This document shows positions 2,583 to 20,084 of a DNA stretch of 34,652 bases, piece by piece; within the stretch, counting starts at the first letter, position 1; the number at the start of each line of letters is the position of its first letter. The notes under the pieces are model-generated. The model ran no database searches. It had not been told where the DNA came from and saw only the letters and a list, made by a program, of their open reading frames with translations. The stretch spans positions 11,047-45,698 of the IMG/VR virus record IMGVR_UViG_3300006621_000087. One strand, given 5' to 3'. This DNA comes from a virus. Both the position numbers and the translations under genes were made by a program.

Positions 2583-3668
2583 ATGTGGAACAAAAGCTAT
2601 GATCTTAGGTCATTAGTATTAGATGTTGAGTTAACTTCTTATTGTAATTTAAGATGCCCTCAATGTTCAAGAACAGATGAACATAATAACCTTGAAAAGA
2701 AATCTTGGTTGCCTCTTCATTCTGTATCTATAGATCAGTTTAAAAACTGGTTCCCTCCAAAAGTAATATGTACACTTAAACAAATACATTTTTCAGGAAC
2801 GTATGGCGATCCTGGCATGTGCAAAGACTTAGCTCAAATAATCGATTATATTATTGACGAAGGTACTTGTAAGGTATCCATTAACACTAATGGTTCTATG
2901 CGAGACTCAGATTATTGGTGGGATATTGCAGCAAAAGGTCAACGTCGATTAAAAATCATTCTTGATATTGACGGTATTAATCAGGAAATGCATGGATTCT
3001 ATAGACGTGGTTCTGATTTAGAAAAAGTATTAAATGTTGTAGAGGCTATTAGCACTACGCCTGTTGAGGTGAGTGTTCTTACTGTTTTATTTAAACATAA
3101 CGAAGATTACCTTGAACAAATTCGTGATATGGTAAAAGCACGCGCATCTAACTATATAACCTTTGATGAGGTTGAAGGTAACAATTTCCAAGGTGGTCCA
3201 ATATATAAATTTAAAGATGAAGATGGTAATGATCAACAATTAGAACAAGTAACACGTAAAGATAGAGAACAAGGACTTGTGCGAGAATCCAGGCGTGTAA
3301 GAGACCATCGCCATATTGAAATCGTAGAACTATATAATAAAATAGACTGTTTAGCAGCAAGTCAGCAAAATCTTAAAATACAATCATCTGGCCAAGTAAC
3401 ACCGTGTTGTTATATGTCAACTCCATTAGAAACTGCTTCATTATTTAATCCCAATAGCTTTAATCGCATGATTACTACGTATGGTGGTAAAGACGAAGAT
3501 ATTAATCCTGTTGCACAAGAATTTATCGACAATCCTGATTTATTTAATTTAGATCATACACCTCTATTAGATATTATTAATGGTGAATGGTTTACTAAAA
3601 CATTACCAGACTCTTGGCAAACAAAAAGCCCTTGCTTCGCATGTTCCAAAGTGTGTGGCGTAGTATGA
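2583..3668 (+). CDS. Radical SAM/SPASM-like enzyme 1
   Basis: This 361-residue protein carries the radical SAM CxxxCxxC signature at Cys21, Cys25 and Cys28, which should bind a [4Fe-4S] cluster and S-adenosylmethionine. A second set of cysteines lies in the C-terminal third (Cys256, the pair 275-276, and 351, 354, 358), as in SPASM/twitch domains that hold auxiliary Fe-S clusters. SPASM enzymes often modify peptides, but some act on small molecules. It ends in an ATGA overlap with a paralogous gene; both share the motifs HNEDY and a Trp-Trp segment after NTNGS. The reaction cannot be told from sequence. A role in modifying a virion protein or surface component is inference from the neighbourhood. 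Confidence 0.85.
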   Translation: MWNKSYDLRSLVLDVELTSYCNLRCPQCSRTDEHNNLEKKSWLPLHSVSIDQFKNWFPPKVICTLKQIHFSGTYGDPGMCKDLAQIIDYIIDEGTCKVSINTNGSMRDSDYWWDIAAKGQRRLKIILDIDGINQEMHGFYRRGSDLEKVLNVVEAISTTPVEVSVLTVLFKHNEDYLEQIRDMVKARASNYITFDEVEGNNFQGGPIYKFKDEDGNDQQLEQVTRKDREQGLVRESRRVRDHRHIEIVELYNKIDCLAASQQNLKIQSSGQVTPCCYMSTPLETASLFNPNSFNRMITTYGGKDEDINPVAQEFIDNPDLFNLDHTPLLDIINGEWFTKTLPDSWQTKSPCFACSKVCGVV

Positions 3669-4792
3669 AGTGGGATTCAAATCAACTTAAAGTATTTCTT
3701 GATATATCTACATATTGTAATGCTGGTTGTCCACAATGTCATAGAACTAATTCAAATGGACTTGGTAAAGAAGATTGGTTACCATTAATACAATGGTCTG
3801 TTGAAGAATTTAAAACTGCGTTTCCACCCAAGGTATTAGAAAATATTGATAGATTTAAATTCTGTGGTACTTGGGGTGACCCAATTATGAATAAAGATAT
3901 ATTAGGAATTTTTAAATATATCTCAGAATATGGCCCTTTATGTTTAATATCTGTTGATACAAATGGTAGTATTCGCAACGAAGATTTTTGGTGGGAACTC
4001 GGATGCATGTTTGGCACAAAACTTGCGGTAGTATTTGCTATTGATGGAATTGATCAAAAAATGCATGAAAGATATCGAAGGTTTACTGATCTCGATAAAG
4101 TACTCAGCAATATGCATATGCTTTCTCAAACAAATGCTATCGTACAATCACAAACAATTCTTTTTCAGCATAACGAAGATTATAAAGACGAGATACTTGA
4201 GTTAGTAAAAGAATATGGTTCTAAAAACCACGAGTTTGTAATTTCTGATAGATTTAATAATAATAATACTGAACATTTTGTAGATGATAATGGTGATGAC
4301 TTTACTTTAACAAGAGCTAATCAAAAATCATTACCAAAAGGTGTTATATCAGGAGCGTTTAAACGAGAAACTATCCCAGTTAAAATAGTTGAAACTATTA
4401 ATAAACCTGTTGAAGCGCCAAAAGTTAAAGTTGTAATGAAACCACAAAAAACATTAGATTATAATATTCAATGTAGATGGGCTTTACCAAGAAACGAAGT
4501 TGTAGTAAATCCAGATGGCCAAGTTCTTCCTTGTTGTTTTCATGCTAATCATATATACGGAAATTGGCCAAAGAATCAAATTCTTAACGATCCTGCATAT
4601 AAGTATTACATTGAAAATAAAAATGAGTTTAACGTATTTAAAACATCTATTATTGATATAATGAACTCTGAACATTTTGCAAAAACACTACCCGAAAGTA
4701 TAAAAGGAGATAATCCTAATCCAATCTGCGTTAAAAACTGCAGTAATAGAGTAAAAACTGAACATCAACTGAGAGAGCGACATGAAACCTGA
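3665..4792 (+). CDS. Radical SAM/SPASM-like enzyme 2
   Basis: A 375-residue paralogue of the preceding protein. The start was set at the ATG of the ATGA overlap at 3665; an upstream in-frame ATG at 3614 would extend 51 bases into the coding part of the neighbour. The radical SAM motif is Cys18, Cys22, Cys25. A C-terminal Cys pair in a GQVLPCCF context, with a further CxxxxC near the end, indicates a second Fe-S cluster site. Shared motifs with enzyme 1 (HNEDY, a FAKTLPES-like C-terminal segment) show they arose by tandem duplication. Sequence divergence is high, so the two may act on different sites. Substrate unknown. Confidence 0.85.
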   Translation: MKWDSNQLKVFLDISTYCNAGCPQCHRTNSNGLGKEDWLPLIQWSVEEFKTAFPPKVLENIDRFKFCGTWGDPIMNKDILGIFKYISEYGPLCLISVDTNGSIRNEDFWWELGCMFGTKLAVVFAIDGIDQKMHERYRRFTDLDKVLSNMHMLSQTNAIVQSQTILFQHNEDYKDEILELVKEYGSKNHEFVISDRFNNNNTEHFVDDNGDDFTLTRANQKSLPKGVISGAFKRETIPVKIVETINKPVEAPKVKVVMKPQKTLDYNIQCRWALPRNEVVVNPDGQVLPCCFHANHIYGNWPKNQILNDPAYKYYIENKNEFNVFKTSIIDIMNSEHFAKTLPESIKGDNPNPICVKNCSNRVKTEHQLRERHET

Positions 4793-5378
4793 TAATATTA
4801 TTTTTGTAAAGCATGGTAAAAAATACGATGCTGAATATGTGAATAGACTAAGAGATAAGTTAATGCCTTATTATCCAACGTCTCAATACTTATGTTATAC
4901 TGACGATCCTATTGGAGTCGAAATAGAATGCATTCCTTGTTTTGAGAAACCAACATTAAAGTATTGGTGGAATAAACTTGCAATGTTTAGTAAAGACTTT
5001 CCTGTTAAAGGTAAATGTTTATACTTTGATTTAGATATGGATATTGAAGATGACTTTACTGATTTTATTAAATGGGATGGATTAACTGTACTCGACGCAT
5101 ATTGGAAAACTGGTTTGTATATGGCTCCACACGCTTATGATGTACAAATCAATAGTTCAATTATTACTTGGACTGCTGGTGAACAAGATTATGTGTGGGA
5201 TAAGTTTATGTCGAATAAAGACTACTATATGAGAAAATATGCTGGTATAGATCGATTCTTAAAACACGAAGGTATTAAATTTAATACATTTGAAACTGGC
5301 ATCGTTGATAGCGTTGCAAATCCTGCTGACTTTAAAGCACCGGTTAAAATGTTTAATGGAATTCATTATGAGTTATAA
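4782..5378 (+). CDS. GT-A type glycosyltransferase-like protein
   Basis: This 198-residue protein overlaps the radical SAM gene by 11 bases. It has the layout of a small GT-A glycosyltransferase: a beta-strand followed by YFDLDMD (residues 81-87) holding a DxD metal and nucleotide-sugar binding motif, and an upstream WWNKLAMF segment typical of GT8-like or related phage transferases. It is shorter than most GT-A enzymes (about 250-300 residues), so the acceptor domain is reduced. It is the first of two adjacent transferases in the train, with a methyltransferase between. The sugar and acceptor are unknown; the virion fibre, host surface glycan or a lipid are all possible. Confidence 0.6.
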   Translation: MKPDNIIFVKHGKKYDAEYVNRLRDKLMPYYPTSQYLCYTDDPIGVEIECIPCFEKPTLKYWWNKLAMFSKDFPVKGKCLYFDLDMDIEDDFTDFIKWDGLTVLDAYWKTGLYMAPHAYDVQINSSIITWTAGEQDYVWDKFMSNKDYYMRKYAGIDRFLKHEGIKFNTFETGIVDSVANPADFKAPVKMFNGIHYEL

Positions 5379-6009
5379 AGAACAACTATATAAAAATGCG
5401 TTAAAGGAAATACAAAGGATCTATAAAGAATCTCAGTATAATCCTAACGTAGATTTGTATCGTAGCTTTGATATAATTAATTCAGTAAATGATAATCAAA
5501 TAGCAAGTAAAGAATGGCTTGCAGATAAAATCATTCCTTACATAGAAAAATCAAATCATAAAAGAGTTTGTTTACTCGGTGGTTGGTATGGTATATTAGG
5601 AATCATTCTTAAAACAAAATATCCTGACGTAGAATTAGCTTCAGTAGATTCAGATGAAGAATGTATTAGTATTGGTAAAAAACTATCAACAGGTATTTGT
5701 AAGCTTAATTTTAAACACGAAGATGCATTAGATTATATGCTTGATATCGATGGTAAGCATGATATAATCATTAATACAAGTTGTGAACATATGGAAAAGA
5801 ACGATATCATATTAATGAATAATTTAAAAGGAAAGAATACTATTGTATGTTTGCAATCTAATAATTACCATTCAATACAAAGTCATATTAATACATACGA
5901 TAGCCTTAATGAATTTGTTGAATCATTAAAGTTAAATCAAATATTTTATAAAGAAGAAATGGAAGCTCCTGGCGGAGAATATAATCGATATATGGTGATT
6001 GGTCGATGA
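5368..6009 (+). CDS. SAM-dependent methyltransferase-like protein
   Basis: The start is placed at ATG 5368, where the gene overlaps the preceding stop by 11 bases; an in-frame ATG at 5290 would overlap far more. The 213-residue product shows a class I methyltransferase pattern: a glycine-rich strand-loop at residues 68-78 (LLGGWYGILG), an acidic residue ending strand 2 (Asp94), and a motif IV-like INTSCEHM at 135-142. The Gly-rich loop is divergent. It ends in an ATGA overlap with the tandem glycosyltransferase. Substrate unknown; O-methylation of a sugar made by the neighbours is one possibility. Confidence 0.6.
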   Translation: MSYKEQLYKNALKEIQRIYKESQYNPNVDLYRSFDIINSVNDNQIASKEWLADKIIPYIEKSNHKRVCLLGGWYGILGIILKTKYPDVELASVDSDEECISIGKKLSTGICKLNFKHEDALDYMLDIDGKHDIIINTSCEHMEKNDIILMNNLKGKNTIVCLQSNNYHSIQSHINTYDSLNEFVESLKLNQIFYKEEMEAPGGEYNRYMVIGR

Positions 6010-7730
6010 AAAGAATTATTTTTACAGTGTATGATGACTTAAACGAAGTCGATGATACTTATAGTCTTGGTACACCCGCAGTAAAACTTGTTGATGAATA
6101 TCTCGATAGGCTTGTACAAAACAAAAAAGACTACGCCGAATCCATTGGAGTTGATTTTAAGTTTTATCATAATACTATGAAAGATTTCGATTGTGATGTA
6201 TCGTTAGAGTTTACAAAGGTTAATTTATATAAGCATCATATAATGTGTAAACTTGCAGAAGAATATGATGAAGTTCTATATGTTGATATGGATGTTGTAT
6301 TGAACACAAAAGAAAATATGTTTGATGAACATGATTTAGAAAAGAATGGTTATCATATTAAATATCAAGATAACTATATTCAAAGCACTCAGATAAAAGA
6401 AGTATTCTTTGCTGAGATCGGATTAAGATCTCCTACTTTAAAATATCATATTACAAAAGCAATGCTTGGTGGAGAAGATAACGAAGATATACATGTAATG
6501 AATACTGGTATTATGCTTGCAAATTCTAAATGGATACAGAAATTAGACTTTATTAACAATATGCAATTCGCGTTAGATAGATTAGAACAAATCAAAAGAA
6601 AGGCAATAAAAGAAAACGAACAAACATATATTAGTCTTTATTTTTATCCTAATAACGAAGCTTTGTTTGCGTGGATGGTTTTAGAATACGATATACCGTT
6701 TTACAATTTAGATGATGAATGGCATTGTATTGTCGATCATGATCCAAAAAAGTATAACTTTGATGATATGAAAGCTATTCATTTTATTAATAAGAAATTT
6801 AATTCGTTCTTTAAAGATAAAACTTATGCAATGTTTTCTATACATGTAGATATACCTGACGATAGACTTGATAATCCAAGAGGTCATTATAAATCAAGTG
6901 TACCTAAGTCTAAGCATGTTAAAGATCAATTATCAAAATATAAAAATGCTTTAATTGATAATCATAAAGAACAAGCAAATGCTATAAATGCAACATATAT
7001 TCATTATAGTAGAGATGAACAATATGAAGAGTTTTACAAAAGGTTTCCTCATTTATCAGAATATGATGTAATCAATTTATATAAAATATGGCTTCTTGAT
7101 AAACTTACAAAAGAATACGATGGTGTATTGTACGTAGATTTAGATTGTTATTTTACAAAGATAGGTATTTCTATATTTGATTACGTTCCTTGGGAAGTAG
7201 CATTCTGTTGTAATTACCAGACGGTCCACGATTTAGTTATAAACAGAACTAGCAATTACTTTGAAACTTATCAATACGACTTTCGAAGTCCACATGCAAA
7301 ATATTGGAACACACATGCTCTTTTAGCTGAAGAAGAAATAGAAGATAACTGCGATATCTATAATACTGGAGTTATGGTTGCAAGTCGAGAAGTAATGAAT
7401 AAACTTGATTACTTTTCTGATATAGACAAAATATTATCTACTATGAAAGAACTTAAAGAAGATGAGTATTCAATGTATCCACCTCAAATAAGAAAATCGT
7501 TTGGATATGATAATGAAACAATCACTGCTTATAAAGTAATAAAGAATAACGTGTTCTCATTTCAATTAAGAGATAATTGGCATTTTAAACATAATGAAAA
7601 CTATCCTGAGTCATATATTAAAGGATCACCAACTTATGTTCGTGAAAAGGCGCACATAAATGAGAATGTAAACAAAAGACAAATCATACACTTTATTTCG
7701 AAAAACTTTTCATTGGTTTTTGATAAATAG
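6006..7730 (+). CDS. Tandem-domain GT-A glycosyltransferase
   Basis: This 574-residue protein is an internal duplication of one glycosyltransferase-like unit. Repeat 1 (about residues 1-275) has YVDMD at 92-96 and MNTG at 165-168. Repeat 2 (about 325-574) has YVDLD at 376-380 and YNTG at 452-455, and both end in a segment with an HFI sequence. DxD should bind the metal and nucleotide sugar, and the NTG motif lies where such enzymes contact the sugar. Keeping both DxD motifs suggests both halves are active, possibly adding two sugars in turn (inference). It starts in an ATGA overlap with the methyltransferase. Acceptor unknown. Confidence 0.65.
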   Translation: MKRIIFTVYDDLNEVDDTYSLGTPAVKLVDEYLDRLVQNKKDYAESIGVDFKFYHNTMKDFDCDVSLEFTKVNLYKHHIMCKLAEEYDEVLYVDMDVVLNTKENMFDEHDLEKNGYHIKYQDNYIQSTQIKEVFFAEIGLRSPTLKYHITKAMLGGEDNEDIHVMNTGIMLANSKWIQKLDFINNMQFALDRLEQIKRKAIKENEQTYISLYFYPNNEALFAWMVLEYDIPFYNLDDEWHCIVDHDPKKYNFDDMKAIHFINKKFNSFFKDKTYAMFSIHVDIPDDRLDNPRGHYKSSVPKSKHVKDQLSKYKNALIDNHKEQANAINATYIHYSRDEQYEEFYKRFPHLSEYDVINLYKIWLLDKLTKEYDGVLYVDLDCYFTKIGISIFDYVPWEVAFCCNYQTVHDLVINRTSNYFETYQYDFRSPHAKYWNTHALLAEEEIEDNCDIYNTGVMVASREVMNKLDYFSDIDKILSTMKELKEDEYSMYPPQIRKSFGYDNETITAYKVIKNNVFSFQLRDNWHFKHNENYPESYIKGSPTYVREKAHINENVNKRQIIHFISKNFSLVFDK

Positions 7731-7761
7731 TAATGTAACCGCTGATTAAGGTATTTGTATT

Positions 7762-8319
7762 ATGACTCTATTATATTTTTATATGTTCTATTGGATCGTA
7801 TCCTTTCTAGGATTTACGATAGGATTTCATCGCGTAGTATCCCACAAATCTATAAACCTACATCCTGTTTTAGAGGCATTTGTTCTCTATGTTGGAGTAG
7901 TTGCTAGCGCGCTATCGCCGTTGGGTTGGGCAGGAATGCATCGTATGCACCATGCTTATGCTGACACTCCAAAGGATCCACATAGTCCAAAGTATATGAA
8001 ATGGTATCAAATACTTTTTTCATCTTATAGAGTAAAAACTATTCCACGAAAGTTTGTACGAGATTTATATAAAAATCCAAGAGTAATGTTTTTCCATAAG
8101 TATAGGTTCTATGTAATTGGTGTTACATATTGGTTAGCAGTTTTAATTAATCCAATGTACTTGTTATGGCTTGTACTTCTTTTACCTACATCATTTATAT
8201 TCTTTGGTCTTATTAATGTAACAGGCCACGACTCAAACGGTAATCCAGTAAATAGATGGTGGATAAATCTATTTGCGCCATTTGAAGGGAATCATACTAA
8301 ACATCATGAACCGAAATAG
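7762..8319 (+). CDS. Compact fatty acid desaturase
   Basis: This 185-residue hydrophobic protein contains all three histidine boxes of membrane di-iron acyl desaturases: His23 and His28 in HRVVSH, His60, 63 and 64 in HRMHH, and His178, 181 and 182 in NHTKHH. About four membrane segments are visible (residues 1-20, 36-56, 116-130, 133-153). The family resembles delta-9 acyl-CoA or acyl-lipid desaturases, which introduce a double bond using O2 and electrons from ferredoxin or cytochrome b5. Those enzymes normally run to 250-380 residues; here the protein stops three residues after the last box, so the usual C-terminal part is absent. It probably acts in the host inner membrane. A phage-encoded FdxA lies 10 kb downstream and could in principle supply electrons (inference). 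Confidence 0.85.
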   Translation: MTLLYFYMFYWIVSFLGFTIGFHRVVSHKSINLHPVLEAFVLYVGVVASALSPLGWAGMHRMHHAYADTPKDPHSPKYMKWYQILFSSYRVKTIPRKFVRDLYKNPRVMFFHKYRFYVIGVTYWLAVLINPMYLLWLVLLLPTSFIFFGLINVTGHDSNGNPVNRWWINLFAPFEGNHTKHHEPK

Positions 8320-8875
8320 CGATACACGCTGGGTAAAAATGAATTTTGATGTACCTTGCGATAAAATAGAAAAAGAATACGAATCAGTAAAAGAATCATT
8401 AGTTATTCATAGACCAGAAGATGGTCATAAAGATTGGTGTGCTATGACTTTATACGGTACGGGATCTGATAATACAAATAGCCACTGGGAATATGGTCGT
8501 AAATCTAAAAAGGATATTACTGAAATAGGAAAGCAATGTCCTGCAACTATGGAATTTGTACAATCATTACCATATGCTCGTATTGATGACGTAAGGTATT
8601 TAGTTATTAAACCTGGTGGTTATATTGCAGAACACGTCGATGTACCAGAGCATAATTGGCTTGATCCTCTTAATATATCGATTACATATCCAGAAGGTTC
8701 AAAGTTTGTACACGACGGAGAAGAAATACCTTATCATCCCGGTGGTGCATTTGTTTTAAATATACATTATGCTCATTCGGTACAGAATGAATCAGACAAA
8801 GATAGATTACATTTATTAATTCACGGCAAAAAGAAAAAAGAGTTTTGGAATTATGTTGAGAAACTCAAACTGTAA
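8306..8875 (+). CDS. 2OG-Fe(II) dioxygenase-fold protein 1 (aspartyl hydroxylase-like)
   Basis: The start at ATG 8306 gives a 14-base overlap with the desaturase and 189 residues; ATG 8273 and 8339 are in-frame alternatives. The C-terminal half has the double-stranded beta-helix pattern of aspartyl/asparaginyl hydroxylase-like 2OG-Fe(II) enzymes: His110-x-Asp112 after a PGG turn, distal His157 in a HYAHSVQN context, and Arg167 placed to bind 2-oxoglutarate. Such enzymes hydroxylate protein side chains, lipids or small molecules, using O2. It is the first of seven related proteins in the train. Confidence 0.75.
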   Translation: MNRNSDTRWVKMNFDVPCDKIEKEYESVKESLVIHRPEDGHKDWCAMTLYGTGSDNTNSHWEYGRKSKKDITEIGKQCPATMEFVQSLPYARIDDVRYLVIKPGGYIAEHVDVPEHNWLDPLNISITYPEGSKFVHDGEEIPYHPGGAFVLNIHYAHSVQNESDKDRLHLLIHGKKKKEFWNYVEKLKL

Positions 8876-9350
8876 AGTTATTACGTTCCTACCAGAAGAT
8901 CGTCCTGATATTCTAAGACGTTTACACGGTGCTGAATACAATCATATAAACTATGATACTATATCTTGGTTTGATTTTGATTGTATATCAATATTACAAG
9001 ATGGCGATGATATAGTCGGGTTTAGTTCTATATGGCATAGAGAAGAACATTATGAAGAAGGTGAAGTAAGAATATTAAATCGTTATTGGGAAGATGACGT
9101 TTTAAGAAGAGGTGGAAGAGAATTAGCTCGAGCTCATATACTTACTATGGTATCTGAACAATTAAAGTTTGCAAAAGAACTTGGATACACAAAAGCTTTT
9201 ATAAGTCGAGAAAAGAACCCTCGAGTTTTTAAAGAACTAATAAATAAAATTGCCAAAGGTACAAATACTGAATGGCATATACATGATAAGAGAGTAGCTG
9301 TCTGTGAAGGAGACGGTTGCTTACAATTTAAAGGATATACCGAATTATGA
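8853..9350 (+). CDS. GNAT-like acetyltransferase, tentative
   Basis: This 165-residue protein overlaps the gene before by 23 bases and the next by an ATGA. The middle (residues about 50-130) reads like a GNAT fold: a VGFSSIW strand, a loop with RGGREL, a long helix (MVSEQLKFAKELG), then a strand KAFISRE leading into a helix, the order seen around the acetyl-CoA site. The classic QxxGxG/A P-loop is only weakly present. An acyl or amino-acyl transfer role in the cluster is plausible but unproven. Confidence 0.5.
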   Translation: MLRNSNCKVITFLPEDRPDILRRLHGAEYNHINYDTISWFDFDCISILQDGDDIVGFSSIWHREEHYEEGEVRILNRYWEDDVLRRGGRELARAHILTMVSEQLKFAKELGYTKAFISREKNPRVFKELINKIAKGTNTEWHIHDKRVAVCEGDGCLQFKGYTEL

Positions 9351-10150
9351 AAACTCGTTATGAATTACCACCATTCTTAAAATTAGATATGCAATTTGAT
9401 GTCGCAAAAATTATTGAAGACGTGAGAAACATGCCACCTGAAACTGATGATTTAAAACAAAAGGATGGTTATGGAGATTTAGTTGGCGGCAAAACTGCAA
9501 AGCTACAAAAAGCATTTGGTTTAAAGTTTGATACAATTGAAGATGCATATCAATTTCTACAAGATAACGATGTAAAAGAATCTGAGTTTAGAAAAGGCTT
9601 GGGTGGTAAGCGTATGGCTTGGGACTTTAGAAATTATGTAAAACCATTTGAAGATTATATTGTTAAAGATGGTAAAGGTAAATTTGAAGTTAATGGATCG
9701 CCTTATAAACAAATCGCTTTAACAAAATATAATCCCGCTGAAGAAGATCGCGTATACGATAAAAAGATTCCTAAGAGTAGACTTGATGAACGTCATTATA
9801 ATCTCGTAAAAGATTGGGTTAAAGGTACTTATTTAGAAGAAATCCTTAAACAGTTTAAAGGTGAAGTCACTCGTGCACGGATTGCTATTATGGATCCTGG
9901 TGCATTTGTTGCAGAACATATTGATTATAATACTGATTATTCAATTCGTTTCCATATTCCTATTACAACAAATGATGATTGTGGATTTTACTGTGTTAAT
10001 CAAGAAGGCGAAAAGGTATATCAAACAATGGAACCTGGATCTTGTTGGTTTTTAAATCAAGGTATGAGACACTCTGCTTGGAATAAAGGAACTACCACAA
10101 GATCTCATATTATCATATCTGTTAATGGACAGGATGATTTAGATGTATAA
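9347..10150 (+). CDS. 2OG-Fe(II) dioxygenase-fold protein 2
   Basis: This is one of the longest members of the dioxygenase group (267 residues). The iron triad is His191-x-Asp193 following a PGAFVAEHID turn, and distal His242 in RHSAWNKG, with Arg252 as the likely 2-oxoglutarate anchor. The N-terminal 170 residues are charged, mostly helical, and have no recognised domain; they may bind the substrate. It is joined to its neighbours by an ATGA overlap upstream and an 8-base overlap downstream. The pattern is closest to aspartyl/asparaginyl beta-hydroxylase-like enzymes. The target is unknown. Confidence 0.75.
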   Translation: MKTRYELPPFLKLDMQFDVAKIIEDVRNMPPETDDLKQKDGYGDLVGGKTAKLQKAFGLKFDTIEDAYQFLQDNDVKESEFRKGLGGKRMAWDFRNYVKPFEDYIVKDGKGKFEVNGSPYKQIALTKYNPAEEDRVYDKKIPKSRLDERHYNLVKDWVKGTYLEEILKQFKGEVTRARIAIMDPGAFVAEHIDYNTDYSIRFHIPITTNDDCGFYCVNQEGEKVYQTMEPGSCWFLNQGMRHSAWNKGTTTRSHIIISVNGQDDLDV

Positions 10151-10652
10151 GAAATGGCGTAATGATTCTTTTATAGAAACAGATTTTAAAGTTGATCGTG
10201 AATTTTGGACTCCGTATTTTACCGGTGAATGGCAAGACAGTAATCAATTATATTCAGAATATGTAAGTGATGCAACGGGTGGTAAAGAAATGAATAAGTT
10301 TTTTGTTCAAGAGATTCATAATTTTGATCGACCGCTCTTAAAGTTAATTAAAAAGATATGGAATGAATTTGGTATTAGACCAAGAGAGTTTCGTTGTAAC
10401 TTTTTTAGAGTATTAGAAGGCGGTGAGCTGCCTGTACATGTTGATGTAAAAAGTGAATGCTCAGTATTAATACCAGTAACAGAGAATACAGGCGAATTAT
10501 ATGTAGAATCCGGGGCTCATCGGGATTCAATTGTATATGATTCACTTACAGTTTTAAACACAAAGAAACCACATGGTGTACAATCACCATCAAAGGAAAG
10601 GATAGTTTTTCATATGGGCATCCACGATACTAAATTCGGAGACTTAAAATGA
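10143..10652 (+). CDS. 2OG-Fe(II) dioxygenase-fold protein 3
   Basis: A 169-residue protein with the iron-binding pattern His99-x-Asp101 (in LPVHVDVK), distal His144 (in KKPHGVQS) and Arg153. The short spacing between the HxD and the distal His and the GELY strand fit a minimal double-stranded beta helix. The N-terminus is rich in Trp and Phe. Both ends overlap neighbouring genes (8 bases and ATGA), so translation is probably coupled. It differs strongly from the other dioxygenases of the train, so the set is old or recruited from several sources. Confidence 0.7.
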   Translation: MYKKWRNDSFIETDFKVDREFWTPYFTGEWQDSNQLYSEYVSDATGGKEMNKFFVQEIHNFDRPLLKLIKKIWNEFGIRPREFRCNFFRVLEGGELPVHVDVKSECSVLIPVTENTGELYVESGAHRDSIVYDSLTVLNTKKPHGVQSPSKERIVFHMGIHDTKFGDLK

Positions 10653-11110
10653 TTAACAGATTAAATTTACCAGCATTAACATTACCATCACCTGCTCATA
10701 ATGCCTTAGAAATTGAATACGATAGTTCAATTATTAATTATACAGCTTGGAATGTTACAGACGAAACGGCTACTTTGGTGGCTGGTCAAGTATTGCAAGA
10801 GATTTTAGATAACGCGCAATTGCGATATCAAGAATCAGATAATACTAAAAACGACAGAATTTTTACAACACAATCACGTTGGAGAATTCTATATATGATT
10901 GATCCGGCAGGTACAGTATTGCATGCACATGATGCAGACGATAACATTACATCTTCTATTACAGCAGTAGCAGGAGAATGGTACCTTATTGATTCACACG
11001 TTAAAAATTCTAATTCTGGAATTACCGGTACACAAACTGCTTTAACAATCAATCATAGCGCTGATTTCAATAGTACGGAGCAGGCTTGGATAGATGGCAA
11101 AATACTTTAA
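10649..11110 (+). CDS. Degenerate dioxygenase-fold or cupin-like protein
   Basis: This 153-residue protein lies in the dioxygenase train with an ATGA overlap upstream and a 17-base overlap downstream. Its beta-strand layout echoes the neighbours: a PAGTVLHAHDAD turn at residues 86-97 and a distal His117 in the DSHVKNS segment. However, the HxD triad is not cleanly present: His92, His94, Asp95 and Asp97 are shifted relative to the family spacing. It may be a non-catalytic partner, bind iron differently, or be an unrelated beta protein. Confidence 0.5.
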   Translation: MINRLNLPALTLPSPAHNALEIEYDSSIINYTAWNVTDETATLVAGQVLQEILDNAQLRYQESDNTKNDRIFTTQSRWRILYMIDPAGTVLHAHDADDNITSSITAVAGEWYLIDSHVKNSNSGITGTQTALTINHSADFNSTEQAWIDGKIL

Positions 11111-11696
11111 ATATGACGTAAGAAAATACTTTGAGCAATATGTTGATTTTGAAAATAAATCAGTATTAGACTTTGGTTGTAATCACGGTAACTTTGTAAG
11201 GTATCAATCTCACCACGATTATACTGGTGTTGATATTAATAAAGCTATTATAGAACAAAACAAAGAACAATATCCAGGTTGCGAATGGATTCATTATAAT
11301 GGATACAATAAAATGTACAATCCCAATGGTACAGAAGAATTTGTACTTGATAGGGATTATGATGTGGCCGTATTGTTTTCAGTTATTACTCATATGGAAA
11401 AAGATGAAGCAATAGAAACTATACAAAAATTAAAAGAACGTTGTAAAACATTATATGTTACATTCTATTCTCACACTAATCAACAAGCTTTAAATAACAT
11501 ATGTCGATATCGGAAATTAGGAATGCCTAATTGGAGCAAGATAACAGAATCAGACGTATATTATTTTAAACCCGAAGAATACCTTTGGTCTTTTTATGAC
11601 GATGACTTTGCTGCAAAAACATTTGGTGGTAAAGTATATGATACAATCTTTAGTCCTAGAACATTAATGGGAATGCAAAAATGTTTAATAATATAA
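11094..11696 (+). CDS. Class I SAM-dependent methyltransferase
   Basis: This 200-residue protein has a clean class I methyltransferase N-terminal half: motif I VLDFGCNHGNF at residues 24-34 for binding S-adenosylmethionine, the acidic motif II GVDINK at 45-50, and a motif IV-like FSVITHM at 95-101, where the HM signature is typical of small-molecule methyltransferases. The remaining 80 residues would form the substrate side. It overlaps both neighbours by about 16 bases. Substrate unknown; it is the second methyltransferase in the train and not closely similar to the one at 5368. Confidence 0.75.
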   Translation: MAKYFKYDVRKYFEQYVDFENKSVLDFGCNHGNFVRYQSHHDYTGVDINKAIIEQNKEQYPGCEWIHYNGYNKMYNPNGTEEFVLDRDYDVAVLFSVITHMEKDEAIETIQKLKERCKTLYVTFYSHTNQQALNNICRYRKLGMPNWSKITESDVYYFKPEEYLWSFYDDDFAAKTFGGKVYDTIFSPRTLMGMQKCLII

Positions 11697-12151
11697 GCCA
11701 TTATAATCTTCCAAACTTTTTAACTCATCGTCAGCATGTACATTTCCTAATTGTTGCAAAGAACTTACATGAAGATCATTGGACTCCATATAAAACATCT
11801 TCTGGTAGACCGGATGGATTCTCATATTATGATTTAAAAACTACTTTTATTGGTAAGAACGTTTACCTTCTTAAAATGAATCCTCATAATCGTATTGATT
11901 GGCATACCGATAGTAGTAAAAGAACTATAGCATTAACCTATCCATTATCAGAACAATATGCACCATGCCAATTTGAAAATAATGAATCAACATCTAAGCC
12001 GGCTTTCTTAAATACACAACAACGACATGCAGTATTTAATAATGCCCAAACAAGATATAGCCTAAACATATCATTCGAAGAGAATATGGATGATTGTATA
12101 GCATTATTCGAAAGCTTGAACGAATATGAATTTAAAACACCTCAACTTTAA
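11681..12151 (+). CDS. 2OG-Fe(II) dioxygenase-fold protein 4
   Basis: A 156-residue protein with His75-x-Asp77 (in DWHTDSSKR), a distal His116 (in QQRHAVFNN) and Arg125 in a TRYSLNISF strand, the usual order for iron and 2-oxoglutarate binding in the aspartyl/prolyl-hydroxylase-like fold. The protein is little more than the catalytic core. It overlaps the methyltransferase upstream by 16 bases and the next dioxygenase by 26 bases. Substrate unknown. Confidence 0.7.
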   Translation: MFNNISHYNLPNFLTHRQHVHFLIVAKNLHEDHWTPYKTSSGRPDGFSYYDLKTTFIGKNVYLLKMNPHNRIDWHTDSSKRTIALTYPLSEQYAPCQFENNESTSKPAFLNTQQRHAVFNNAQTRYSLNISFEENMDDCIALFESLNEYEFKTPQL

Positions 12152-12608
12152 AATAGATAAACCTCGTTTTAGAAGAATAGCTGAAAAGTGGAAAAGTGCT
12201 GGTAAGTATTACCAATGGAAACAATTCGAACAAGAAGATAAATGGTTCCAAACATATCCACCTCAAGGAGAAGATGACGCAATATCTGAAATAGAACATG
12301 CACTTGGCATTCATATATTTCAGAATAAGCCTCGTTTCTATTGGCTTAAACCAAACTCTAATCTTCCAATCCATTTTGATGAAGATAATGTAACATCAAT
12401 ACAAATTAATCTAATGGATCAAACGCCTGAAATAGGAATCGAAGGCGTGGGTAATGTTCCGTATGAAGCGATGATAATAAATAACGGATATATAAGACAC
12501 TGGGTAGATCCAGTACCTTATGAGCGTTTACAATTAAAATTTGTAATGCGTGAATCATACGATCAAATAATGAAGGTAATACCTAATGCCATATTACAAA
12601 ACAGATAG
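12126..12608 (+). CDS. 2OG-Fe(II) dioxygenase-fold protein 5
   Basis: A 160-residue core-type dioxygenase: His83-x-Asp85 (in LPIHFDED), distal His125 (in YIRHWVDP) and Arg134 (in ERLQLKFV). The N-terminal 45 residues are basic and aromatic. It overlaps genes on both sides by over 20 bases, and no ribosome site of its own is evident, which suggests translational coupling. Layout and size match protein 4, so the two may be an old tandem pair. Confidence 0.7.
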   Translation: MNLKHLNFKIDKPRFRRIAEKWKSAGKYYQWKQFEQEDKWFQTYPPQGEDDAISEIEHALGIHIFQNKPRFYWLKPNSNLPIHFDEDNVTSIQINLMDQTPEIGIEGVGNVPYEAMIINNGYIRHWVDPVPYERLQLKFVMRESYDQIMKVIPNAILQNR

Positions 12609-13458
12609 ACCATTTGCCGATCGTAAACTTCGGAATATGGATATTATTCATAATCCAAATACATCATTGTTTGAAGATCAATACGAATCGTCATATTGTA
12701 TTCCAGACTTTATAACAGATAGAGAACGATTAGAACTACTTGAAGTTTGGAACGATAAATTTGATACTATAGGTGAGATCATAAACGATCATATTTACCG
12801 TATTACATATCCAATGCTTATTAAAGAAATATCTGATATTGTAAGGCCAAAAATCTATGAACATTTTGGAGATGATATAGTATTCTACTCAGATATAGCT
12901 GGTAATGATCCTATGAGTGTTGGAGATCAGATGTTTAAAGCTATACAACCATATGGATTACACACTGACTCAGTAACTCACCTTGATGGGTATAGACCAT
13001 ATAAGGATATTATCATACCATTGCTTATAGATGGCCCAGGAACATATGTTACATTCAACCAAAGATATCGTGGGCATGCCACTATGTTTATGAATGGAAG
13101 AGATATAACCTCATATGCTAACTATCATAATATAGTCAAAATACAGTCGTATAAAGAATATGGTGTAGAAAATATAGATGAAACAAATCCAGATCATAAT
13201 AGACTCGAAATGCTTATGCCTAAACATATACCTTTGTCTGTATATGATGGGCTTTCTATTGAAGCAATATTCTTATGGCAACATTGTAATGCCATCGTAC
13301 AAGACACGTCAGTGCTTCATGCACCCACAGAGTTCAAAGGAAGTAAGATAGGATTAACCCTACATCTTATGAAACGTGACGAGAGCTACAAAAATAGCAT
13401 CTCTGGCCACTATACTCCGTGGTCTCCGCACACAAAACCAATAAAAAAATTAAAATAA
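12586..13458 (+). CDS. 2OG-Fe(II) dioxygenase-fold protein 6
   Basis: This 290-residue protein ends the modification train. The iron triad is His126-x-Asp128 (in YGLHTDSVTH) and distal His245 (in SVLHAPTEFKG), with Lys251, Lys254 or a later basic residue placed for 2-oxoglutarate. The spacing of about 117 residues between HxD and the distal His and the long insert resemble phytanoyl-CoA or prolyl hydroxylase-like enzymes more than the short neighbours. A 114-base gap with an early promoter follows, so this is the last gene of its transcription unit by position. Substrate unknown. Confidence 0.7.
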   Translation: MPYYKTDRPFADRKLRNMDIIHNPNTSLFEDQYESSYCIPDFITDRERLELLEVWNDKFDTIGEIINDHIYRITYPMLIKEISDIVRPKIYEHFGDDIVFYSDIAGNDPMSVGDQMFKAIQPYGLHTDSVTHLDGYRPYKDIIIPLLIDGPGTYVTFNQRYRGHATMFMNGRDITSYANYHNIVKIQSYKEYGVENIDETNPDHNRLEMLMPKHIPLSVYDGLSIEAIFLWQHCNAIVQDTSVLHAPTEFKGSKIGLTLHLMKRDESYKNSISGHYTPWSPHTKPIKKLK

Positions 13459-13514: not shown

Positions 13515-13543
13515 TTGACATTTGCTTTAAGATGATGTATAAT
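13515..13543 (+). promoter_or_regulatory. Consensus sigma70-like promoter P1
   Basis: TTGACA at 13515-13520, a 17-base spacer, and TATAAT at 13538-13543, a perfect match to the bacterial housekeeping consensus. It lies in the gap between the dioxygenase train and the small-gene block and points at the gene at 13573, whose AAGGA ribosome site is at 13561. Confidence 0.9.
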
Positions 13544-18788: not shown

Positions 18789-20084
18789 ATGTCAAAAATT
18801 AAAGTAGGCGTCATCGGCGTCGGTAATTGTGCTCAATCCCTTGTTGAAGGTATTCAGTACTATAATGAAAATCCCAATGATCACGTAGGACTTATGTATC
18901 CAGATATTGGAGGATATAGTTCAAGTGATGTTGAATTCGTAATTGGTTTTGATGTCGATAGACGTAAAGTAAATCGCCCACTCATCGAAGCATTACGTGC
19001 TAGACCAAACTGTGCTATGAACCACGTTCAAGAGCTATTAGAGTCTGGTAATAATACTCCAGGTTGTGTTACTCCAGGTGCAATGGTTTATTCAAGTCCA
19101 ACCCTTGACGGTGTTGCAGAATGGATGGATTACTACCCTGAAGAAGTATCATTTAGAACAGGTGCAGAAGAAGCTAAATCATTTGATGATATCGTACAGC
19201 TTATTAAGGATACAGGTACAGAAGTTCTTGTTAACTACTTACCAGTTGGTTCTGAAAAAGCAACGCGTTTTTATATCGATGTAGCTTTGAAAGCAGGCGT
19301 ACACTTTGTTAACTGTATTCCAACACTGATTGAAACTAAAGAAACACAACAAATTGAACAAAAGTTTATCAATGCAGGTCTTACCTTCGTTGGTTCAGAT
19401 ATGCGTTCAGCTTGGGGTGCTTCAAGATTATCTGAAGTTTTACAAGGCGCAATGATTGATGGTGGTTTGCATGTAACTTATCACACTCAAACAAATCGTA
19501 TTGGTGGTGCAACTCAAGGTCGCGAACATATTCGTAACGGTGTTACATCAAATACAGACTTTATTAATATGGCTGAAAAAGAACGTCTACATAATAAGCA
19601 TATCTCAAAAGAGAATGTTTTGAAAGGACAGAATACTGTTCGTGGAGTTAATTATGCTGGTGATACATTGTATGCCGGTCCATCATTAACCGTTCTACAA
19701 AAACCAGGTGGTGACTATGTTGGATCTGATAATAAGATTGCAGATCTCGATATCGTAGCATTTGGATTTGGTGGAGCTCGTTATACATTACAAGCTAGAC
19801 TATCTTGCCAAGACTCACCAAACTCTGGTGGTGTGGTTATTTCAGCAATTCGATTCTGTCGAGTAGCGTCTGAAATGGATATTGTTGGTATTCTTCGTGG
19901 GCCAAGTGCTTATACACAGAAAACTCCACCGGTACAGCTTACAACAGCTGACGCAAAGTTTGAATGTGATGCATTAGCTCGTAGAGAACTTACAAATATG
20001 ACAAGACCACAACTTGCATCAGCTAAGCCTAAAGCAAAAGATCTTCCATATACCTACCAGGACGGAAAGACTGATTATGAGTAA
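18789..20084 (+). CDS. ino1: myo-Inositol-1-phosphate synthase (MIPS family)
   Basis: This 431-residue protein matches the prokaryotic inositol-1-phosphate synthases (mycobacterial Ino1 type), which convert glucose 6-phosphate to inositol 1-phosphate with bound NAD. Seen: an N-terminal Rossmann motif VGVIGVGNCAQSL (residues 6-18), NYLPVGSEKATRFY (149-162), a TDFINMAEKERL segment (256-267), and DSPNSGGVVISA (342-353) near the C-terminus, where the KTPPVQL stretch also fits. In the family's DD-x-KS motif, this protein has SDMRS (203-207) with Arg for the Lys I recall as part of the active site, so the reaction may be altered. It is the first gene behind P5, and the next gene overlaps its end by 8 bases. 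Confidence 0.88.
   Translation: MSKIKVGVIGVGNCAQSLVEGIQYYNENPNDHVGLMYPDIGGYSSSDVEFVIGFDVDRRKVNRPLIEALRARPNCAMNHVQELLESGNNTPGCVTPGAMVYSSPTLDGVAEWMDYYPEEVSFRTGAEEAKSFDDIVQLIKDTGTEVLVNYLPVGSEKATRFYIDVALKAGVHFVNCIPTLIETKETQQIEQKFINAGLTFVGSDMRSAWGASRLSEVLQGAMIDGGLHVTYHTQTNRIGGATQGREHIRNGVTSNTDFINMAEKERLHNKHISKENVLKGQNTVRGVNYAGDTLYAGPSLTVLQKPGGDYVGSDNKIADLDIVAFGFGGARYTLQARLSCQDSPNSGGVVISAIRFCRVASEMDIVGILRGPSAYTQKTPPVQLTTADAKFECDALARRELTNMTRPQLASAKPKAKDLPYTYQDGKTDYE

Follow-up and report, generated by a model that had tools for sequence, protein, structure and literature searches.

Gene content of the region

The DNA analysed here, hereafter the window, comprises positions 11047-45698 (34,652 nucleotides) of the 100,061-base IMG/VR virus record IMGVR_UViG_3300006621_000087, and the system in question is a train of enzyme genes that lies behind a tail-fibre gene at window positions 2583-13458 (10.9 kb). 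This extent, first delimited in a sequence-only reading of the window, is borne out, and all of the open reading frames (ORFs) in the train lie on the same (plus) strand, as do the fibre gene, g2, and the early-type promoter at 13515. The reading had counted fourteen genes in a dense, overlapping layout. The layout stands and the count rises to fifteen, the additional ORF being X4 (10649-11110). Nearly all neighbours had been said to overlap, and overlaps of 4-26 bases are indeed found at 13 of the 14 junctions when the likeliest starts are taken for rSAM2 (3665), MT1 (5356), and OX1 (8306). The sole gap is one of 31 bases at 7730/7762.

The clamp loader of the source phage is nearest to those of T4-superfamily phages, including Methylophilales phage Melnitz and cyanophages, and T4-type clamp, baseplate hub, and tail tube genes are also present. 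On the evidence of these genes, the source phage is a T4-superfamily myovirus, most likely from a marine habitat. A nucleotide search of the phage collection returned no close relative of it, and an Rfam scan of the window returned no RNA.

The window opens inside the gene for an 824-amino-acid (aa) fibre-like protein, which starts at position 10549 of the record, outside the window; its C-terminal 658 codons occupy positions 1-1977. It is followed by g2 (1988-2563), which encodes a 191-aa partner protein, possibly a fibre assembly protein. The train begins with two radical SAM/SPASM proteins, rSAM1 (2583-3668; Pfam 7.5e-12 and 8.9e-5; PHROG 21308) and rSAM2 (3665-4792), which are 34% identical. 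In rSAM2, the SPASM match is above the cut-off (1.6e-7) and the Pfam Radical_SAM match is under it; the start at 3665 is likelier than a TTG at 3614. Next are GT1 (4782-5378), a GT-A-type glycosyltransferase with a DLD motif (PHROG 1962 glycosyltransferase, 1.6e-9), MT1 (5356-6009), a class I methyltransferase-like protein with conserved GGWxG and NTSCEHM-type motifs, and GT2 (6006-7730), a tandem GT8-like glycosyltransferase with two DxD domains.

Beyond the gap lies a membrane di-iron protein of the desaturase/hydroxylase type (7762-8319; Pfam FA_desaturase 7.8e-9), in which every His box is conserved in an alignment of 27 sequences. It is followed by OX1 (8306-8875; Pfam 8.9e-15) and OX2 (9347-10150; Pfam 2.6e-13), both 2-oxoglutarate (2OG)-Fe(II) proteins of the Asp/Asn beta-hydroxylase family that match Asp_Arg_Hydrox, the latter with an extra N-terminal region. 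Between these two is a GNAT-like protein (8853-9350). The remaining genes are OX3 (10143-10652), a small 2OG-type protein; X4, an unassigned HxH-motif protein that occurs in close relatives only; MT2 (11094-11696), a class I methyltransferase; OX5 (11681-12151) and OX6 (12126-12608), both 2OG-type, OX6 being a paralogue of OX3; and OX7 (12586-13458), with a PhyH-like 2OG dioxygenase fold.

Enzyme identities

Profiles and motifs support most of the identities proposed from the sequence alone, namely two radical SAM/SPASM proteins, two glycosyltransferases, a desaturase, and six 2OG-Fe(II) proteins. The other calls fare unevenly. Of two proposed methyltransferases, MT2 is supported (Methyltransf_23, 8.1e-10) and MT1 gives a sub-threshold match (MTS, 0.0014). 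The GNAT-like call is tentative, since the GNAT profile is matched by one of nine relatives, at an E value of 0.09. The protein read as a tandem GT-A enzyme is GT8-like as a family (Glyco_transf_8 in four of six aligned members, best 1.7e-8), while the window copy, scanned whole, gives no match. Profile comparison of GT1 with GT2 aligns the DxD segment only, without significance.

The count of six 2OG-type proteins is correct, because the HxD...H iron triad is kept across the relatives of OX1 (H110/D112/H157), OX2, OX3 (HxD at 99/101, H144, with a conserved R153), OX5 (H75/D77/H116, with R125), OX6, and OX7 (H126/D128/H245). In X4, HxH replaces HxD in five close relatives, and the 2OG triad is thus absent. 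Pfam holds no informative family for OX3, OX5, OX6, or OX7. Profile comparison relates OX3 to OX6 (hhalign probability 91%), aligns OX5 with OX2 at the motif with low probability, and finds nothing between OX3 and OX2. Searches of PDB profiles with OX3, OX5, and OX7 gave no convincing sequence relatives. For the predicted structure of OX7, all 50 top structural matches listed are 2OG-type enzymes, and the model matches a PhyH-like dioxygenase fold. The nearest solved structures to OX2 are a beta-hydroxylase (7v4f, 9.5e-8) and L-proline cis-4-hydroxylase (4p7w, 3.6e-6), hinting at an amino-acid-like substrate. Among the members of the OX1 family are OlsC and LpxO, which hydroxylate lipids (weak matches, 1.4e-4 and 1.5e-3).

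MT1 has more than 560 relatives in viral contigs. The distant ones frequently adjoin radical SAM genes, even where the present fibre is lacking, and MT1 and the radical SAM proteins may therefore act together. In three related phages, the radical SAM and SPASM halves that are fused in the window are two ORFs overlapping by 17-20 bases (for example L021:1728-2703 [G002] and G003:C1:53848-54799 [L024]), which could reflect two genes or a frameshift.

Two other assignments were considered and set aside. For a viperin-type defence role of rSAM1, the matches are weak (PADLOC pVip, 5.6e-10, 37 bits; NCBIfam viperin, 28.9 bits against a cut-off of 180), and a SPASM domain is present. As for a cluster for a ribosomally synthesised and post-translationally modified peptide, no convincing precursor emerged when the train was scanned for small ORFs that have a ribosome-binding-like site, although one could lie elsewhere; a gene for a 63-aa protein upstream of the fibre looks fibre-like.

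The train is not a chance assembly of genes, because the whole of it is also present, 93-95% identical, in an independent assembly (FZLS01000007.1; L223), and because every gene in it is under purifying selection. The ratios of nonsynonymous to synonymous substitution (dN/dS) range from 0.008 in OX2, the most constrained, to 0.26 in the desaturase, with 0.018 in the GNAT-like gene. The fibre has the highest value among the genes compared (0.36).

Promoters and expression layout

The T4 late promoter core, TATAAATA, is rarer in the window than expected (1 observed versus 6.75). In the record, 8 of its 13 copies lie 30-60 nucleotides (nt) before an ORF start (P about 1e-9), several of them ahead of long tail- or fibre-like genes. 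One copy, at record position 10283 and thus outside the window, is followed in turn by the 63-aa fibre-like gene (L008:10333-10524), the fibre gene, g2, and the train, and no copy lies inside the train. In the relatives, 21 sites are found in the 700 nt upstream of the fibre versus 3.5 expected, and 15 in the 4 kb downstream versus 16.6 expected.

The train had been described as free of early-type promoters, and this holds: sigma-70 matches inside it are at the level of shuffled sequence, as they are over the region as a whole. Perfect (12/12) early-type promoters occur only past the train, at 13515 (TTGACA-17-TATAAT, 13515-13543) and 14356. From this layout of late and early promoters, the train appears to form the last part of a late operon whose start lies before the fibre gene. 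The earlier suggestion of a single operon gains support from the late promoter ahead of the fibre, the gene overlaps, and the lack of promoters inside the train. To judge from promoter position and overlap, one T4-type late promoter probably drives the small fibre-like gene, the fibre, g2, and the fifteen genes as one transcript.

Linkage of the enzymes to the fibre

The N-terminal domain of the fibre (approximately 315 aa, a conserved family) was used alone as bait. Eighty loci were kept, which form 58 clusters at 85% identity, and 43 of the non-redundant viral loci have at least 4 kb downstream. The downstream families were clustered without the train as query; families absent from the train were named from sequence reading and the annotation of Pelagibacter phage Mosig. 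The g2 family is present in 42 of the 43 loci, usually as the next gene after the fibre. The GT1/MT1 cluster is present in 40, GT2 in 27, and radical SAM genes in 18, followed by nitroreductase-like (12), carbamoyltransferase-like (10), desaturase (9), and epimerase-like genes (8). At least one of GT1, MT1, GT2, and radical SAM is found in 42 of the 43. The sequence-only reading had proposed that gene neighbourhoods be compared for movement of the train with one fibre type, and the comparison does place the enzymes beside this fibre in nearly every locus.

The strand of the enzymes relative to the fibre varies (GT1 is on the same strand in 24 loci and on the opposite strand in 18), and the linkage thus survives rearrangement. 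Sister islands also hold aminotransferase, carbamoyltransferase, and sugar epimerase genes, as in sugar pathways. In a set of 50,697 phage records, the combination of fibre domain, MT1, GT2, and desaturase occurs in Mosig alone, where a single island flanked by tail-fibre and baseplate genes holds all four; the protein with the fibre domain is Mosig_00097. Correlations with fibre distance are weak for GT1 (r = 0.17) and MT1 (0.28) and higher for GT2 (0.49) and the desaturase (0.71, 12 loci); being calculated without a core-gene control, they are not used as proof. A DYRxQEFPxG motif is invariant across 42 relatives of the fibre domain, down to approximately 31% identity, and may be a site of recognition or modification.

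Two modules

The train is composed of two modules. Module A (the radical SAM pair, GT1, MT1, and GT2) tracks the fibre. Module B consists of the desaturase, OX1, the GNAT-like gene, OX2, and OX3, with MT2, OX5, OX6, and OX7 as variable additions. With OX2 as bait, 50 viral loci were obtained, and presence was counted in those with room for the gene: OX1 is present in 46/46, the GNAT-like gene in 46/47, OX3 in 44/44, and the desaturase in 40/43. The core order is nearly invariant in the 50 loci.

Between the window phage and L187, identity is 30-33% for the fibre domain, GT1, and MT1 (the fibre falling to 32%), as against 80% for OX2, 73% for OX3, 62% for OX7, and 61% for OX1. In the inspected module B loci that lack the present fibre, other tail-fibre-like genes lie alongside. 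Module B thus moves, or is conserved, without regard to which fibre allele is present, and the notion that the whole train serves the present fibre is not supported. From the low divergence and the other fibre neighbours, module B probably makes a conserved building block that is common to several fibre types. To look for a bacterial origin of module B, the species genomes of bacteria and archaea were scanned; the one contig that emerged is phage sequence, 93-95% identical, from a bin assigned to Rhodobacteraceae.

In module B loci that lack the present fibre, the gene directly before the desaturase encodes a conserved protein of approximately 100 aa (L253:7998-8300, L247:3764-4060, and L232:7978-8277). 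In some phages a 323-aa protein with an SGGADSE PP-loop-like motif (L177:17851-18822) is inserted in the module.

Elsewhere in the window, positions 18789-20084 encode a myo-inositol-1-phosphate synthase domain (Pfam 2.3e-9) and match a phage family without assigned function at 1.8e-113. The phage further encodes an A-type Fe-S carrier (L008:8099-8473; Fe-S_biosyn 1.2e-18), which could serve radical SAM enzymes; an NAD-dependent sugar epimerase (L008:676-1545; 4.6e-34), a relative of the Mosig-island epimerase that could supply sugar nucleotides; and a class 3 lipase (L008:2955-3662; 1.1e-22).

Possible functions of the train

The train probably serves to decorate either the fibre or the receptor gripped by the fibre. 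Tentatively, and with somewhat less than even confidence, we prefer the reading that it forms the enzymatic portion of a tail-fibre cassette expressed late in infection, in which module A decorates the fibre and module B supplies a building block. Module A would build and attach a glycan-type decoration that belongs to the present fibre family. As its target the fibre itself is likeliest, and the decoration would then take place in the cytoplasm while virions are being assembled. The product of module B would be a conserved building block or substituent, hydroxylated or desaturated, that could serve phages whose fibres differ. Profile searches of the train proteins recognised no flippase or lipid-carrier (polyprenol) transferase; this lack of recognised export genes, together with the late promoter layout, favours the virion as the target. 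A stronger version, in which a late pathway of about fifteen genes combining radical SAM, glycosyl, methyl, desaturase, and 2OG chemistry builds a new post-translational tail-fibre decoration, while a five-gene module that can pass between phages contributes an exotic but conserved substituent, is rather doubtful at present.

Several points weigh against fibre decoration. The fibre loci share ancestry, so that the 42 of 43 are not independent events, and enzymes that act on the receptor of the host would be expected to accompany the fibre as well. A protein is hardly the substrate that one would look for in a membrane desaturase. Module B is far more conserved than the fibre, and the present fibre is found in 10 of the 20 module B loci with room for it; the desaturase and this independence of the fibre favour something other than a modification specific to the fibre sequence. 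No acceptor site, precursor, or carrier has been identified for the train. The AlphaFold2 model of a 311-aa relative of the fibre domain is of high confidence (predicted local distance difference test, 94.8) and has no fold match in the PDB or BFVD, the best Z in a second look with VIA-align being 3.8, which does not imply a novel fold.

The chief alternative is that the glycosyltransferases, methyltransferases, and hydroxylases alter the lipopolysaccharide (LPS) or another surface glycan of the host late in infection and so block other phages or the phage's own progeny, the linkage to one fibre type then arising, just as expected, through the common receptor. It is in line with the published treatment of glycosyltransferases in the host recognition cluster (HRC) of pelagimyophages, in whose discussion of the cluster O-chain (LPS) modification is favoured (PMC7029224). 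GT8 enzymes commonly serve LPS synthesis, desaturases usually act on lipids, and the OX1 family includes OlsC and LpxO, as given above. Exclusion functions, however, are usually expressed early, which sits poorly with the late promoter layout. The lack of a recognised flippase or polyprenol transferase in the train and the amino-acid hydroxylase among the solved relatives of OX2 also speak against a host-surface target, which on balance is unlikely, if a serious possibility. Less probable again is that module B remodels acyl chains of the membrane or of lipid A (by desaturation, 2-hydroxylation, and N-acylation) and that module A has a separate fibre or glycan function, the two being unrelated late cassettes that happen to adjoin. 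The intact His boxes of the desaturase, the OX1 similarity just mentioned, the separability of module B from the present fibre, and a change of the host membrane proposed for viral desaturases (PMC7300359) would fit. In contrast, the structures nearest to OX2 are those of a beta-hydroxylase and a proline hydroxylase, six different 2OG proteins seem excessive for acyl chains, and module B is still among tail-fibre genes in the inspected loci.

Two further explanations may be judged very improbable. The tail-fibre region could merely gather metabolic genes, so that the association has no functional meaning; the region corresponds to an island described as hypervariable (PMC7029224), and entire radical SAM clusters, seemingly exchanged as blocks, distinguish the Campylobacter phages CP220 and CPt10 (PMC2853527). 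Against such a neutral hotspot stand the recurrence of the same families in 42 of the 43 fibre loci, the conserved order of the module B core, the occurrence of the enzymes in both orientations, and the strong purifying selection. Hypermodification of phage DNA bases by the 2OG enzymes and glycosyltransferases, for which one could cite the thymidylate synthase homologue, dCMP deaminase, and C5 cytosine methylase that the phage also encodes, is slightly the less likely of the two: no TET/JBP Pfam match is found among the 2OG proteins at E up to 1, the genes are late and fibre-linked in position, and the tandem glycosyltransferase has a GT8-type match.

Comparison with known systems

The closest described system is the HRC of Zaragoza-Solas et al. 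(2020), in which T4-like marine phages keep tail fibres together with glycosyltransferases of the GT8 type and cassettes of radical SAM genes in one variable region (PMC7029224), and the present locus is likewise a variable island of tail fibres with glycosyltransferase and radical SAM genes in such a phage. The HRC lies between VrlC and gp14. In Mosig, and probably also in the related phage G002, the fibre is bordered by VrlC-type and baseplate genes; in the window record, which is incomplete, a GroES-like gene precedes the fibre and early-promoter genes follow. By contrast, the passages of that paper on the cluster describe neither the five-gene module B nor the pairing of fibre and g2 nor a two-module structure, and no late promoter is described there, the authors' search for one having failed (PMC7029224).

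The island of Mosig EXVC030M (approximately 54-74 kb, MT647606) shares the homologous fibre domain, MT1, GT1, GT2, radical SAM, desaturase, and Asp/Asn hydroxylase. It differs from the train in order and strand, holds in addition aminotransferases, a carbamoyltransferase, nitroreductases, TauD, and a peroxiredoxin, and has been annotated gene by gene only. The clusters of CP220 and CPt10 resemble the train in having several radical SAM and nucleotide-sugar transferase-like genes near baseplate-type genes (PMC2853527). Identity to rSAM1 is only 24% over 73% of rSAM1, an amidinotransferase is present there, and no 2OG/desaturase module is annotated.

Virion proteins of mycobacteriophages are glycosylated, and phage-encoded glycosyltransferases probably decorate the structural proteins. 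Here, too, glycosyltransferases are encoded alongside structural genes. In those phages the capsid or tail tube is decorated, not the fibre, and we know of no radical SAM, 2OG, or desaturase set in them. Glycosylation of virion proteins has been suggested for phage Maravista (PMC11256854).

Significance

The island type is already known. The literature searched, outside of which most subscription journals lie, yielded no description of the exact linkage of fibre, g2, and enzymes, of the five-gene module, or of the promoter layout. Marine T4-like phages devote at least 10 kb to enzymes among their tail-fibre genes, and with one fibre family tightly linked to g2 and the enzymes, and with a late promoter, what was a loosely defined 'host recognition island' becomes a system that can be tested. 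A homologous cassette is carried by a cultured phage, Mosig, which grows on Pelagibacter HTCC1062. The almost fixed order of the module over 50 viral loci, together with the single phage-like contig in the cellular genomes scanned, points to an undescribed phage-specific biosynthesis.

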